Virus record (IMG/VR): IMGVR_UViG_3300035698_004988
Location: 1-45,961 of that record
From: a virus
Strand: one strand, 5' to 3'
Length of the DNA: 45,961 nt
Every line of letters starts with the position of its first letter. Within the stretch, counting starts at the first letter, position 1. The translations under genes and the position numbers were made by a program. Under the pieces are notes generated by a model, which worked only from the letters and a program-made list of their open reading frames with translations, had not been told where the DNA came from and searched no databases. Below are positions 24,024 to 43,493 of this stretch, in pieces.

Positions 24024-24040
24024 CCTGTCAAAATGACAGG
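24024..24040. promoter_or_regulatory. Dyad CCTGTCA-N3-TGACAGG, candidate activator site
   Basis: Perfect 7-bp arms around AAA. Its centre is about 128 bases upstream of the predicted sigma-54 start, the usual distance for a bacterial enhancer-binding protein. The DNA between is AT-rich and gene-free. Confidence 0.5.
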
Positions 24041-24134
24041 TTATATACAAATACCCCATCTTAACAATCGCCATAAACCCTTTACCCACAAGGGGTTATA
24101 TCAATATTTATTTTTGTTTTAATTTATCCGTGTT

Positions 24135-24150
24135 TGGCACGCGGTTTGCT
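24135..24150 (+). promoter_or_regulatory. Sigma-54 (RpoN) promoter for the early arm
   Basis: TGGCACG, four bases, TTGCT: every consensus position of the -24/-12 element is matched, with GG at 24136-24137 and GC at 24148-24149 exactly 10 bases apart between them. It points to the first cassette gene; the expected start is near 24160, 26 bases before the first boxA. Transcription would need host RpoN and an enhancer-binding ATPase. Confidence 0.75.
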
Positions 24151-24185
24151 TATTGTTTATTGGAAACACAATTGATTTTACACCC

Positions 24186-24199
24186 GCTATTTGAAAATT
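24186..24199 (+). promoter_or_regulatory. boxA-like element 1
   Basis: GCTATTTGAAAATT, followed by GAATATATAAT, where the 5-prime stem arm begins. It matches rRNA-leader boxA (GCTCTTTAACA type) in order and in its position immediately before a stem. Confidence 0.55.
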
Positions 24200-24200
24200 G

Positions 24201-24473
24201 AATATATAATTTATTGAGCGCATTTTACAAACCAATTGAAAGTGGTGATAAAATGGACATATTTGAATTAAAACAAAATGCTCGATTGTTAAAAGCAATA
24301 TCGACAGTTAGGCCAATCGTTTTGGATCTGGTAAAAAACGATAATGACGATACTGAAGCGATGAATTGTCTAAAATTATTAGATAGTCTGGACGATATAA
24401 CGACAGATTCGATATTAATGGATATTGAAGATATAAAATAAAACAAACGAATGCGCTCAATAAATTGTATATT
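24201..24473 (+). repeat. Gene-flanking inverted repeat 1 (cassette 1)
   Basis: Arm 24201-24224 (core AATTTATTGAGCGCATT) pairs with 24450-24473 (core AATGCGCTCAATAAATT). 24 pairs with one G-U wobble and no gaps. The only gene inside is at 24253-24441. Confidence 0.9.
24253..24441 (+). CDS. Cassette 1 early protein, unknown function (62 aa)
   Basis: ATG 24253 with AAGTGGTG upstream; a TTG further upstream is inside the stem arm and is rejected. The product is small, acidic and helical (MDIFELKQNARLLKAIS, then LLDSLDDITTDSILMDIEDIK). It is the first gene after the sigma-54 promoter, so it should be made at once on infection. Such genes often target host functions, but nothing here identifies a target. 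Confidence 0.7.
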   Translation: MDIFELKQNARLLKAISTVRPIVLDLVKNDNDDTEAMNCLKLLDSLDDITTDSILMDIEDIK

Positions 24474-24479
24474 AAAAAC

Positions 24480-24493
24480 GCTATTTGACAATT
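24480..24493 (+). promoter_or_regulatory. boxA-like element 2
   Basis: GCTATTTGACAATT, directly before the 5-prime arm of stem 2 and 6 bases after the 3-prime arm of stem 1. It differs from element 1 at one base. Confidence 0.55.
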
Positions 24494-24826
24494 GAATATA
24501 TAATTATTTGAGTGCATCGGAAAACGGAGACTCAATATGAAACATCGAATACTAACTTGCAAAAACCATACAGGCCTACGCTGGAGTTGTAAAGATATTG
24601 CTTGGAGTGATGATCATTATAATCATTCTAGGAATATAATGTTTTGTGGAATACCTTCAGGTAAAGGTATGTATAGTGATAATAGCGGTTTGGATTGTAT
24701 ACTAGTATCAAAAGGAAAAATAATACAAGAATGCACGTGCTCAGCCAAAGACTTAATTATAGCGAGCGAAGATAAACTAGTAACATGTTAAACATATAAT
24801 TGATGCACTCAAATAATTGTATACTC
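24494..24826 (+). repeat. Gene-flanking inverted repeat 2 (cassette 2)
   Basis: Arm 24494-24518 (core AATTATTTGAGTGCATC) pairs with 24802-24826 (core GATGCACTCAAATAATT): 17 perfect pairs, a G-U wobble at the same place as in stem 1, then six more pairs with one mismatch. Four core positions differ from stem 1, all compensated on the other arm. Confidence 0.9.
24537..24791 (+). CDS. Cassette 2 early protein, cysteine-containing, unknown function (84 aa)
   Basis: ATG 24537 with CGGAGA upstream. Cysteines at LTCKN, WSCKD, MFCG, LDC, ECTC and a terminal VTC suggest metal binding or a compact fold, but spacing does not match a named zinc finger. It is otherwise beta-leaning with GKGMYSDNSGLDCILVSKGK. 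It sits alone inside its inverted repeat. I recognise no family. Confidence 0.7.
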   Translation: MKHRILTCKNHTGLRWSCKDIAWSDDHYNHSRNIMFCGIPSGKGMYSDNSGLDCILVSKGKIIQECTCSAKDLIIASEDKLVTC

Positions 24827-24829
24827 AAA

Positions 24830-24843
24830 GTTCTTTGACAACT
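24830..24843 (+). promoter_or_regulatory. boxA-like element 3
   Basis: GTTCTTTGACAACT, the closest of the three to the bacterial rRNA leader form, followed at once by GAATA and the 5-prime arm of stem 3. Confidence 0.55.
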
Positions 24844-25316
24844 GAATAAATGCCGATTGTCGGATATATCTTAAAATCGAAAGTAGGTGTATTATGAGTA
24901 AGAATATAACGACAATAGAAGATAAAAACTACCAGTTACACTCTGTTAAGGTAGGGACGGTTAAGATTGGTCTAGTGCCAGTGCTCGCTGCTACAACTGT
25001 TCAGGACATTTTGAACAGTTACCCTGAAGATTTGATAGTTAGTGACTGGCATAAAGGGGCGGCTGTTAGACTGCAAGCAATGGCGAGAAATTGCCACTCA
25101 CAGGATAAACTGTCGAAGGGCGATTTTGGACGGATAGCTAGCACGCTATTGCTAGAGGACGCGGCTAGATATCAAGGTAACTTTTCATTGCTCGAAACTG
25201 ATGTTCAAGCCGTTTATGAGAATGAAAAAGATGATATTGCAGCGAATGAAGATAAAGTTTGGGCGGAATTACTGTAAACAAGTTAACAATCACAATAACA
25301 ATCGGCATATTCAGTT
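24840..25316 (+). repeat. Gene-flanking inverted repeat 3 (cassette 3)
   Basis: AACTGAATA (24840-24848) pairs with TATTCAGTT (25308-25316), and TGCCGATTGT (24851-24860) with ACAATCGGCA (25298-25307). 19 pairs are broken by a two-base bulge. The 3-prime arm contains CATATTCA, the half-site of the 21-bp palindrome. Confidence 0.85.
24894..25277 (+). CDS. Cassette 3 early protein, unknown function (127 aa)
   Basis: ATG 24894 with GTAGGTG upstream. A beta N-terminus (YQLHSVKVGTVKIGLVPVLA) is followed by a helical region with SDWHKGAAVRLQAMARNCHSQD and an acidic C-terminus. Codon use is slightly more GC-rich than that of its neighbours. It is the third and largest cassette gene under the sigma-54 promoter. 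No recognised family. Confidence 0.7.
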   Translation: MSKNITTIEDKNYQLHSVKVGTVKIGLVPVLAATTVQDILNSYPEDLIVSDWHKGAAVRLQAMARNCHSQDKLSKGDFGRIASTLLLEDAARYQGNFSLLETDVQAVYENEKDDIAANEDKVWAELL

Positions 25317-25347
25317 TGTTTTGTTTCTTTTATTTTTGGAGATTATT

Positions 25348-38954: not shown

Positions 38955-40283
38955 ATGAAAGTTAACATTGCAGATATAAGATTAGAAAAGAAGGATGATA
39001 AGACTAAGAGAGTACGAAAAGACTTCGGGGACATTTTCCAACTAGCGGATAGTATTAAACGAGGTGGTTTGCTTCATCCACCTGTTGTAAATATCGACCC
39101 GATTGGGGAGAAGAAATATGTTCTCATAGCTGGAGAGAGAAGGATTAGAGCCTGCATCTTTAACGGATGGACAGAGATTCCTGTTACTCTCTTCGATGAT
39201 ATGGATAGTCTTGACAGAAAGATTTTAGAACTAGAAGAAAATACAATTAGGCAAGACCTTACCTGGATGGAACAGATAGAAGCAGTCAGGCAGCTTGATG
39301 AAATGAAGAGAGAGAAGCATGGTAGTGCGACTCAAAGTAAAACTAGTGAAGGTTGGAGCATACAAGATACTGCAGATACAATCGGCATGTCTAAAGGCTC
39401 AGCTGGTCAGGATATAAAACTTGCGAAGGATTTATTAGCACGACCAGACTTAAAAGCGAAAGTTAAGAAGCTTCCAAAACATGCGGCTAGGAAAATTGTT
39501 AAGCAGACATTGGAAGAGGAGGCTCTCAAACGACTTATATCAATGAAGCAGCTTACAGTATCATCTGATTTAAGACTAGGCAGCTGTGTTAATTTAATAC
39601 ACGATTTGAAGGATGAGAGTATTGATTTATGGCTTACTGACCCCCCATTCGGAGCGGCACATATAGTAGGAGCTAGTGGAAGCGATTCACCGTCAGAGGG
39701 GATGCCGCTTTATAACCTTACAGAATCAAACGTCGGAACTGATGAAGAGATGAGTAAGGTTTATAAAGAATTGATTCCACTAGTTTATAAGAAACTAAAG
39801 CCTGGAGCACATGTATATATGTTCTTCGGGCATGCTTGGTATTGTCGTCTTTTCAGGATGCTAACTGATGCTGGTTTTCACATCGATGAGCAACCGCTGA
39901 TATGGGATAAGATGAGGGTTTCAGTAATGGCGAAAGACCTTCATTACATGTCATCTTATGAAGGTATATTATTTGGATATAAGCTTCCTGCTGGTAGGAT
40001 ATTGACAAAGCCAGTTGCGAATGTTTTATCTGTGCCGGCTATGTCTCATCAGGCTAAGACGCACTCGCTTCAGAGACCGCATGAGCTGTTGAAGATACTA
40101 ATTGAGAATAGCTCTAATGTTGGAGAGACAGTTCTAGATACATTCGCAGGGTCAGCTAGTACACTCGTATCGGCTAGGAAATTACAGAGAAATGCGATTG
40201 GCTTTGAGTTAGATGAAGGGAACTTTTTAAGAGCTCAGAATTTTATGAATGAAGAACTTGGAGAATTTAATAATGGGAGCTAA
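38955..40283 (+). CDS. ParB-domain / DNA methyltransferase fusion (442 aa)
   Basis: ATG 38955 with AAAGG upstream. The N-terminal part is ParB/Srx-like: LADSIKRGGLLHPPVV near 30-45, then the box AGERRIRAC at 59-67, and a helix-turn-helix (WSIQDTADTIGMSKGSAGQDI) at 134-154. The C-terminal part is a DNA methyltransferase of the beta order: TDPPF at 228-232 first, then LDTFAGSAST (AdoMet motif) near 404-415, with RPHELL between. The class could be N6-adenine or N4-cytosine. It probably protects phage DNA from host restriction; the ParB part may give sequence targeting. Confidence 0.85.
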   Translation: MKVNIADIRLEKKDDKTKRVRKDFGDIFQLADSIKRGGLLHPPVVNIDPIGEKKYVLIAGERRIRACIFNGWTEIPVTLFDDMDSLDRKILELEENTIRQDLTWMEQIEAVRQLDEMKREKHGSATQSKTSEGWSIQDTADTIGMSKGSAGQDIKLAKDLLARPDLKAKVKKLPKHAARKIVKQTLEEEALKRLISMKQLTVSSDLRLGSCVNLIHDLKDESIDLWLTDPPFGAAHIVGASGSDSPSEGMPLYNLTESNVGTDEEMSKVYKELIPLVYKKLKPGAHVYMFFGHAWYCRLFRMLTDAGFHIDEQPLIWDKMRVSVMAKDLHYMSSYEGILFGYKLPAGRILTKPVANVLSVPAMSHQAKTHSLQRPHELLKILIENSSNVGETVLDTFAGSASTLVSARKLQRNAIGFELDEGNFLRAQNFMNEELGEFNNGS

Positions 40284-40867: not shown

Positions 40868-41035
40868 ATGAAACATAATAAGCACGATAATTGCAGAACA
40901 TGCATATGGTTTATTACTAAAGATGAGATAGTTACATCTAAATTTTGGTATGTAGGATGGTGTAGAAGGTTTCCTAATTGGAAAGAAGTAGAAAAATATC
41001 ATTACTGTGGAGAATATAAAATTGAAAGTAGCTGA
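40868..41035 (+). CDS. Small cysteine-rich protein (55 aa)
   Basis: ATG 40868 after TTAGGAAC. NCRTCIWF, VGWCRRF and HYCGEY place cysteines as CxxC...C...C, a likely metal site, in a Trp/Lys-rich protein. Its 3-prime end overlaps the start of the polymerase gene by 14 bases. Unknown function. Confidence 0.55.
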   Translation: MKHNKHDNCRTCIWFITKDEIVTSKFWYVGWCRRFPNWKEVEKYHYCGEYKIESS

Positions 41036-43493
41036 TATAGGCTCAACTGATGCAAAGATTATGATAGTTTCGGAGGCACCTGGACGGACTGAAGAACAGA
41101 CTGGAAGACCTTTTTCAGGAGCTAGTGGACAATTGCTACGACAGATGCTACAGCATGTCGGGATAGATTATAATCAATGCTACGTTACGAATGTAGTTGA
41201 CATACGACCGCCTGATAATGGCTTCTCGTCTTTCTATGAACAGAAGAATAGGAAAGAACCGACAGCCTTACTACTAAACTATCACGATGCTCTTAGAGCT
41301 AAGATATTAAAAATCCGGCCGAATATTGTTATCGCTCTAGGAGCCGAAGCTCTCCGCGCTATTACTAATAAGAGAGGGATAGAAGCATGGAGAGGTAGTG
41401 TTATGAAGTATGATGAGGTTAAGATACTTGCTACTTATCATCCATCTACAGTTCTTCGAAGCTACAACATGCATCCAATAGTCGAGATGGATTTGACTAA
41501 GGCTCTTGCTGAGAGTACGTCTAAAGGATATTACTATCAAGAACCTAGTACAGTTATAAGACCTAGTCTAGTACAAACACTCAAGTGGTTGAAAAATTGT
41601 AAAAACTATCCTAGAGTTAGTTGGGACATAGAGACTATAGGACAGCATGTTAGGTGTATTGGTTTAGCAGTTGGGGCTAGTATAAATCCTAGTTCAATTG
41701 TTATACCATTTATAAAATTCCCATCATCTAATATGGTAATGCCAGGAGAGAAAAATCTAATCCGCATTGGAGAAGGTAGTGGGGATATGACGTCTTACTG
41801 GAATAAGCATGATGAGTTGCTTGTACTCAATGCGCTGGCAGATGTTCTTGAGAATAAGAGTATTCAGAAGGTCGGGCATAATAGTATCAGCTTTGATGCT
41901 TCAATTATGAAGAAGGAATTTAATATTGACATAGCTAATCACTACATGGATACTATGCATGCTTTCCATTTAATCTACTCTGAGCTTCCTATGGGTCTTA
42001 AGTTCTTGTCAACAATAATGATGAACATACCGAACTACTGGAAGGAGAAACAGACTAGCTCAGATAATAGTGAGTGGAAGTATTGCGGGATGGATGCAAT
42101 TTGTACACTTGTAATATCATATAAGCTTGATGATGAGATTAACAGTAAAGGGATGAGAAGGTTGTATAGACATATAAATAATCTAGCCATATCTCTAACT
42201 ACTATACAAAATAGAGGGATTACAGTAGATACAGTTGCTCGTGATGCTATGATAGTTGAGCAAAAGAAAAAGCTTGTGGATATTACAGTAAATATAGAAA
42301 GTGTAGCTGGGAAAGGCTTCAATCCTAATAGTCCGAAGCAAGTTAAAGAACTTCTTCATGATAAGATGAAGTTTCCTACTACGTATAAGAAAGGAAATAT
42401 TACAACTGATGAGGCTACGATTAAGAAACTGATTCGTAGGTATCCACAGGAGATTATTCTTAAGAACATCGTATCTTATCGAAAGGTTACTAAACTTATA
42501 AATACATTTTTAGAAATAAATCTAGATGATGATGGGAAGATGAGGACAAATTATAATGCGAGTGGGACTAAGAGCGGAAGGATTTCTTCATCTAAAACGC
42601 TTTGGGATAGCGGTATGAATCTTCAGAATATTCCGGTCGGAAAATCTAAAGGCGTTGAAAATATTAGGAATATATTTGTACCTTCTAAATGTGCTATGTT
42701 TCGAGGCGTATCAATATGTCAAGGATACGGATGTAAAGTATGCGGAGGTTCTGGTAAAAAGTTATTCATAAAAGCTGACTTAGAACAGGCTGAGGCGTTG
42801 GTTGTTGCTGAGATACTATTCCGACATGGAGACCCAACACTGAGAAACCTGCACAAAGACAGAGACTTCGATGTTCATATTTGGATGATAGATCAAATAT
42901 ATAAGTATACAAAGGTTGCTAGTCTTAAAGGCCGGCGGGATATTGGTAAGTTGGTAAATCATTCTGGTAACTATAGAGCCGGTCCTGGAGTTCTTGTTAA
43001 TAAAGCTATTAAGGAAGAGATAGAAGGGATTGATTTTCAACTCGCTAAGCTTGTACTAGCAGCCAGACTAAAAGCGATTCCTGGATTGAAAAAGTGGTGG
43101 AGGTGGGTTGAGAAGAAGGTGGCATCTACTAGAACACTCGAGACTTGTTTCGGGAGGAAGAGGATATTCTTCGGTCGGCTTGATGAAACTACCTTCCGTG
43201 ATGCATACTCATTCGAGCCGCAGTCTATAGTTGGTGATGTTACTAATAGGATATTGACGAAGATTGAGATGAATGTTGATAGTAAGATTGATTTATTGTT
43301 ACAGGTTCATGATGAAGTTGATGGTGAGTGTTATGAGAAAGATTTAGATGAAGTTGTTACTGAGATAAACTTAGCCTCTTTGATTCCAATATTCATAAAT
43401 GATACACCGCTAATAATTCCGATCGATGTAGAGGTCGGGAGTAACTGGAGAGATGTTGTTTCGTATAAGGAGTATAAGAATAGAAATAAATAA
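41022..43493 (+). CDS. Uracil-DNA glycosylase (family 4-like) / 3-5 exonuclease / family A DNA polymerase fusion
   Basis: 823 residues. TTG 41022 has GGAG 9 bases upstream; GTG 41007 is an alternative. Domain 1 (about 1-165) is UDG-like: VSEAPGRTEEQTGRPFSGASG, TNVVDIRPPDN, VIALGAEAL, ATYHPSTVLR. Domain 2 (about 190-375) is a DnaQ-type exonuclease: SWDIETIG, GHNSISFDASIM, CGMDAICT. Domain 3 is PolA: SGTKSGRISSS, NLQNIP, ADLEQAEALVVAE (motif A), the O-helix RDIGKLVNHSGNYRAG, and LQVHDEVDGE (motif C). A CxxG..CxxC-type knuckle (CQGYGCKVCGGSG) is inserted before motif A. It should be the replicative polymerase, able to read or remove uracil. Confidence 0.88.
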   Translation: MKVADIGSTDAKIMIVSEAPGRTEEQTGRPFSGASGQLLRQMLQHVGIDYNQCYVTNVVDIRPPDNGFSSFYEQKNRKEPTALLLNYHDALRAKILKIRPNIVIALGAEALRAITNKRGIEAWRGSVMKYDEVKILATYHPSTVLRSYNMHPIVEMDLTKALAESTSKGYYYQEPSTVIRPSLVQTLKWLKNCKNYPRVSWDIETIGQHVRCIGLAVGASINPSSIVIPFIKFPSSNMVMPGEKNLIRIGEGSGDMTSYWNKHDELLVLNALADVLENKSIQKVGHNSISFDASIMKKEFNIDIANHYMDTMHAFHLIYSELPMGLKFLSTIMMNIPNYWKEKQTSSDNSEWKYCGMDAICTLVISYKLDDEINSKGMRRLYRHINNLAISLTTIQNRGITVDTVARDAMIVEQKKKLVDITVNIESVAGKGFNPNSPKQVKELLHDKMKFPTTYKKGNITTDEATIKKLIRRYPQEIILKNIVSYRKVTKLINTFLEINLDDDGKMRTNYNASGTKSGRISSSKTLWDSGMNLQNIPVGKSKGVENIRNIFVPSKCAMFRGVSICQGYGCKVCGGSGKKLFIKADLEQAEALVVAEILFRHGDPTLRNLHKDRDFDVHIWMIDQIYKYTKVASLKGRRDIGKLVNHSGNYRAGPGVLVNKAIKEEIEGIDFQLAKLVLAARLKAIPGLKKWWRWVEKKVASTRTLETCFGRKRIFFGRLDETTFRDAYSFEPQSIVGDVTNRILTKIEMNVDSKIDLLLQVHDEVDGECYEKDLDEVVTEINLASLIPIFINDTPLIIPIDVEVGSNWRDVVSYKEYKNRNK

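Follow-up and report, generated by a model that had tools for sequence, protein, structure and literature searches.

Phage small genes enclosed by RNA helices behind boxA-like leaders and a putative sigma54 promoter, in a layout similar to that of rRNA operons

Organisation of the three-cassette region

The stretch of DNA analysed here, referred to as the window, is a virus record of 45,961 bases, having its late genes (terminase, portal and virion protein) on the minus strand and its replication genes (nuclease, Sak4-like protein, ribonucleotide reductase, DNA polymerase A and primase) on the plus strand. At the divergent point of the window, which is the head of the plus-strand operon, three small genes are found in tandem, encoding proteins of 62, 84 and 127 aa, each one lying between two complementary arms and with a boxA-like string preceding the 5' arm (Table 1). 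The preliminary description of this DNA had already placed three consecutive genes each inside its own inverted repeat with such a string in front, as was confirmed by a mechanical arm search and a pattern scan; the putative sigma54 promoter and the enhancer-like palindrome upstream of the cassettes had been overlooked. The early timing assigned there to the cassettes is an assumption, and sigma54 transcription requires an activated enhancer-binding protein.

Table 1. Positions of the features of the three-cassette region in the window
Feature	Position	Strand	Remarks
Candidate enhancer (upstream activating sequence), palindrome CCTGTCAAAATGACAGG	24024..24040	.	sole TGYCANNNTGRCA in the window, 0.105 expected
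Putative sigma54 (-24/-12) promoter TTGGCACGCGGTTTGCT	24134..24150	+	sole 0-mismatch match in the window; syntenic in L007, L189, L190, L192 and L193
boxA-like 1, GCTATTTGAAAATTGAATA	24186..24204	+	pattern scan; same place in relatives, e.g. TGTTCTTTAACAAGTAAATA in L193
5' arm of stem 1	24198..24224	+	mechanical arm search, fold
Gene 1, 62 aa, no family	24253..24441	+	upstream gene of similar start in L172, by eye
3' arm of stem 1	24450..24476	+	mechanical arm search, fold
boxA-like 2, GCTATTTGACAATTGAATA	24480..24498	+	pattern scan
5' arm of stem 2	24492..24518	+	mechanical arm search, fold
Gene 2, 84 aa, no family	24537..24791	+	homologous gene after the gene 3 homolog in L180, by eye
3' arm of stem 2	24802..24828	+	mechanical arm search, fold
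boxA-like 3, GTTCTTTGACAACTGAATA	24830..24848	+	pattern scan
5' arm of stem 3	24840..24860	+	sequence inspection, fold
Gene 3, 127 aa, conserved first-operon protein	24894..25277	+	homologs behind sigma54 promoter and boxA in relatives
3' arm of stem 3	25298..25316	+	sequence inspection, fold

The window DNA had no match in the comparison with phages, and no Rfam match was found in it, the enclosed product being not rRNA but conserved protein genes. Pfam and PHROGs gave nothing significant for the enclosed proteins. The gene 3 protein was found at E=3.1e-4 by a profile of its relatives built without the window protein; it had no match in the comparison with phages and none in viral contigs. 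Its model, with a pLDDT of 79, has a predicted beta-hairpin plus helices, and the fold search with this model returned no match. Elsewhere in the window, the product of positions 29662-30120 matches phage RNA polymerase sigma factors (PHROG E=2.7e-9), so that a second promoter class is possible, the DNA polymerase A (41007-43493) carries a uracil-DNA glycosylase-like domain at its N-terminus, and a ParB-like domain is fused to a DNA methyltransferase domain at 38955-40283.

Regarding the promoter, exact matches to TGGCACN5TTGCW number one in the window against 0.02 expected, and this site is situated 36 bp upstream of boxA 1. The CCTGTCAAAATGACAGG palindrome lies about 107 bp further upstream, a typical enhancer distance, and two to three TGYCANNNTGRCA copies are present in each of L190, L192 and L193, 93-182 bp upstream of their sigma54 promoter. 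Thus, the palindrome is at the typical distance in the window and in these three contigs and is absent from L007 and L189, with one further copy in L181, elsewhere. NorR may be considered as the activator, the CCTGTCAAAATGACAGG palindrome being no more than loosely similar. A second palindrome, TAAACCCTTTACCCACAAGGGGTTATA, is found at about 24073-24099 of the window, just 5' of the sigma54 site, where AAGTCCTT-type palindromes are seen in L189 and others. If the sigma54 promoter drives the unit, its expression should consequently depend on an activated enhancer-binding protein. In addition, there is no terminator after the cassettes in the window, and therefore the transcript may run on into the replication genes.

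The pattern GYTMTTTGAMAANTGAATA is matched without mismatch at three sites only in the window, namely the three boxA-like sequences, and 0.0000 are expected per window in a Markov-1 simulation, a figure that shows rarity only, as the pattern was derived from the sites. In cassettes 1 and 2 the sequence is GCTATTTGA, which departs from the usual GCTCTTTGA by a single base. The published gamma-proteobacterial boxA consensus is GYTCTTTAANA (PMC5725501); it is fitted by the boxA of L190 and L193, which contain GTTCTTTAACA. The search for a host rRNA boxA, in a sample of one phylum, returned a single match, at a locus without an rRNA hit. There is one boxA-like sequence to a record or to a cassette, and the reversed control is nearly without matches. 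Its reading as a -35 element (TTGACA) was rejected by eye, as many copies have TTGAAA and no -10 element is situated at 16-18 nt. The identities of the sigma54 promoter and of boxA are strongly supported.

Boxes of this kind without arms are also known from other contexts. The boxA-like sites in named phages have no arms, and boxA-like leaders without arms are likewise present in other mobile elements. As a side observation, the boxA-like CTTTGACAACTGAATA stands between genes, without arms, at position 2501 of L208 (a Streptococcus element), L209 (phage CampHawk) and L210 (a gut phage).

Pairing of the arms in the window and in the MQTK group

Stems 1 and 2 have 27 nt each, with 26/27 positions paired including G-U, and stem 3 carries a 2-nt bulge. 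The 5' arms of stems 1 and 2 differ at positions 15, 16, 22 and 27 of 27, and all four differences are compensated in the partner arm, with a T-G wobble at position 10 common to both (24207/24467 and 24501/24819); comparison by hand thus bore out what had been claimed from the first inspection. It had also been proposed that each stem pairs with its own partner, on which duplex energies and the minimum free energy (MFE) fold agree. The own duplexes of stems 1-3 reach -31.1, -32.1 and -22.7, the best swapped pairs reaching -20.8 and -23.4. For stems 1 and 2, the own duplexes are thus 8-11 kcal/mol stronger than the swapped ones. In the MFE fold of 24160-25340, the three own stems are formed, with base-pair fractions of 0.87, 0.95 and 0.68, and no swapped stem appears. 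The swapped pairing of cassettes 1 and 2 was therefore rejected, being the weaker duplex and absent from the fold. Moreover, the gene-flank complementarity of genes 1-3 has z values of -6.2, -7.1 and -2.3, while 15 other genes in the window range from -1.4 to +2.8.

Relatives with covarying arms, for which a search had been suggested in the preliminary description, were found in another phage group, designated MQTK and apparently unrelated to the window. This set comprises L027, L037 and L138, which have an orthologous protein in common, and the relatives of that protein, giving ten orthologous small genes with proteins 75-88% identical. All ten units have a sigma54-like promoter, boxA, 5' arm, gene and 3' arm, the arms having diverged yet still pairing, and in the MQTK group the sigma54 site is also preceded by a conserved block. 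The gene-flank complementarity of the units with arms has z values from -3.0 to -8.9. In four further orthologs (L160, L161, L164 and L167; z -0.7 to 0.5), the promoter is of the sigma70 type and both boxA and the arms are missing, indicating that promoter, boxA and arms come and go together.

Eight MQTK units can be placed in a common register, in which 93.8% of the cells are paired, a percentage raised by the choice of the register for best pairing, and double changes occur in 13/20 pairs. The covariation of these eight units is 0.779, compared with 0.176 +- 0.041 after shuffling (0/500) and with no more than 0.195 in slid registers. Across 17 cassettes, own partners beat all random assignments (0/20000 permutations), the same search being used for own and swapped partners; L159 and L163, which pair outside the common register, are counted among the 17. 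As the covarying cells include G-U pairs, they argue for RNA rather than DNA. The covariation support comes from the MQTK group and from cassette 1 against cassette 2; L007, the closest relative of the window, ends just inside boxA. An RNA helix around the gene is close to certain. The layout resembling an rRNA operon and the RNA nature of the stems, both advanced in the preliminary description, are strongly supported, and the same layout is present in four more lineages.

Occurrence in relatives of the window and in other lineages

Contigs found by terminase similarity provide a test free of motif selection, and L007, found by this similarity only (terminase 77% identical), has TTGGCAC-N5-TTGC followed by CACTTTGAAAAGT at the syntenic site. 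In L189, L190, L192 and L193, the sigma54 promoter is followed by boxA at the syntenic site and then by a homolog of window gene 3. This boxA is degenerate in L189, present as three tandem copies of TTCTTTAACAATCT in L190, placed before each of two genes in L192, and reads TGTTCTTTAACAAG in L193. In L190, the three tandem boxA lie at about 528-660 on the minus strand (TTCTTTAACAATCTA, period 15), downstream of the sigma54 promoter. Gene-enclosing complementarity was not found in these four contigs (z -0.7 to 0.9). Promoter and boxA are thus the shared core; the window carries arms, which were not found in L189, L190, L192 and L193. Since the arms are absent where sigma54 and boxA are kept, boxA does not require arms, and the helix is not obligatory there. 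L172, L179 and L180, inspected by eye, are apparently units with sigma70-type promoters and without the module.

When viral contigs were scanned for sigma54 plus boxA, arms were also found in L027, L037 and L138, as well as in L046, L044, L111 and L133, the latter four being repetitions of the design outside the MQTK group, with a second boxA cassette having its own helix in L133. These non-MQTK cases come from scans that demanded sigma54 and boxA, which biases this non-homology sample. Altogether, the design is present in the window phage and in about five other uncultivated phage lineages, apparently unrelated to it. Homology of the gene 3 and MQTK families is not supported, although both models read as beta-hairpin plus helices, that of MQTK being poor. 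The design may therefore have arisen separately. No MQTK or L046 protein was found in named phages, and named phages with similar polymerases have no strict sigma54 plus boxA unit.

An intrinsic terminator stands 3' of the 3' arm in L154, L158, L162, L046, L044 and L133, similarly to the end of an rRNA trailer, and therefore boxA is unlikely to serve there for reading through to genes farther away; in these relatives, a role of boxA in folding or tethering fits better. Short repeated strings were noted downstream of the unit, CTGCTAATTGC in L037 and CTGGTC in L044 and L111. The scan of genome contigs returned ten matches, mostly coding or unrelated. Separately, two WOR-3 genomes, L149 at about 999 (minus strand) and L150 at 5343, carry a pilin-like gene (MRRKGFTLIELMIVV) that is preceded by sigma54 plus GTTCTTTGACAA and has no arms. 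A Candidatus Rifleibacterium contig (L144, 2729-2970, minus strand) has sigma54, boxA and complementary arms; the arms are separated by about 150 nt, in which no ORF reaches 50 aa, so that a small RNA is possible.

Proposed mode of action, alternatives and significance

The leader-trailer helices of rRNA are substrates of RNase III, and the Nus complex is recruited by boxA (PMC10250234); a contribution to rRNA folding is also ascribed to this complex (PMC6614801). The phage units are similar to rRNA operons in the order of promoter, boxA, 5' arm, gene and 3' arm, with a terminator in several relatives, in the long covarying helix and in the letters of boxA. They differ in enclosing protein genes of about 60-150 aa, with one helix per gene and in tandem, and in having a putative sigma54 promoter plus an enhancer-like site where rRNA operons have a sigma70 rrn promoter.

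We consider it probable, with reservations, that the phage unit is built like an rRNA operon, with sigma54, a boxA served by Nus factors, a helix and a processed or end-protected mRNA. The position and rarity of promoter, palindrome and boxA are observed, as are the RNA helices with their covariation in relatives, whereas the use of sigma54, the binding of Nus factors, cleavage by RNase III and the stability of the mRNA are what we infer. The host sigma54 RNA polymerase would be activated by an enhancer-binding protein bound to the palindrome upstream, starting at about 24160, and the boxA of the leader would then recruit NusB/S10 and other Nus factors to the elongating polymerase, conferring protection against Rho. 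Since boxA directly adjoins the 5' arm, the boxA complex may retain this arm while the gene is transcribed and up to the appearance of the 3' arm, and each mRNA would thereby become enclosed in a leader-trailer helix. Cleavage of the helices by RNase III may then yield a separate mRNA for every gene, and the paired ends would resist exonucleases and 5'-end-dependent decay, resulting in high and durable expression.

Alternatively, only the helix may matter, forming a panhandle mRNA that is stabilised or cut by RNase III, the boxA-like block being part of the arm or leader and not a Nus site. This is unlikely, yet it is the strongest of the alternatives, as the helix often starts within or beside the boxA block, the complementarity extends by eye into boxA in L046, L111 and L165, and covariation proves the helix and not Nus binding. 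Against it, boxA is kept without arms in L193, in L190 as the tandem triplet and in L192 before two genes, and its letters match rRNA boxA, with the restricted number of sites and the almost empty reversed control mentioned above.

It is still less probable that boxA confers antitermination or another Nus-dependent control and that the arms remain uncut, as insulating or translation-control structures. Some mRNAs, among them suhB, are known to be controlled through boxA (PMC5725501), and the arms are dispensable in the relatives of the window; however, they lie outside the ribosome-binding site and coding sequence and enclose the whole gene, to which end protection or excision fits better. As to cassettes acting at the DNA level, with the arms as recombination sites or as the terminal inverted repeats by which gene cassettes move, three tandem cassettes with inverted repeats do recall mobile elements, but we regard this as very improbable: the arms are unit-specific among cassettes and orthologs and covary only with their own partner, G-U pairs included, boxA is one-sided, the unit lies between sigma54 and a terminator, the gene occurs without arms in the sigma70-driven orthologs, and no target-site duplication or empty site was seen at the arms. 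Chance occurrence of AT-rich repeats and consensus-like strings, in an AT-rich region whose first cassettes share a 49-nt direct repeat, is refuted by the permutation, shuffle and slide controls and by recurrence in unrelated phages, leaving it a negligible share.

Returning to the rRNA-operon-like unit, other known systems share some of its parts. In lambda, nutL/nutR (N, boxA, boxB) also place boxA in a phage leader; in contrast, the phage units are gene-sized with their own long-range stem, and several relatives have a terminator just behind the gene. No N-like protein was found among the proteins scanned, and no N gene or boxB was recognised. In T7-type early mRNAs, RNase III divides the phage mRNA into gene-sized pieces at local hairpins between genes, whereas the arms described here are on opposite sides of the gene and after boxA. 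Cellular mRNAs controlled by boxA, such as suhB, have boxA in the leader of a protein gene, but a gene-enclosing helix and a sigma54 promoter are not described there (PMC5725501). Among open-access papers, which is weak evidence, no literature on sigma54 plus boxA phage units or on phage mRNAs so built was found, nor any report of sigma54 promoters in phages. The parts are known, and the rRNA-operon layout has been moved onto protein genes, a combination that a specialist may judge to be a separate kind.

If this reading is true, stable mRNAs are also produced by a boxA and leader-trailer device whose best-known setting is rRNA, and a gene of 0.4 kb would allow this device to be examined independently of ribosome assembly, making the roles of Nus factors against Rho and in RNA tethering separable. 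It would also offer a cassette that can be transferred to other genes to obtain stable mRNA in bacteria. The sigma54 orthologs and their sigma70 counterparts would constitute a natural experiment on why promoter and processing travel together. Whether unrelated phages repeatedly adopted a unit of sigma54 and rRNA-type boxA, with end-protected mRNAs of small genes gated by a host stress or nutrient regulator, appears to us evenly balanced; in that case, phages would tie their replication-side operon to the sigma54 activators of the host.
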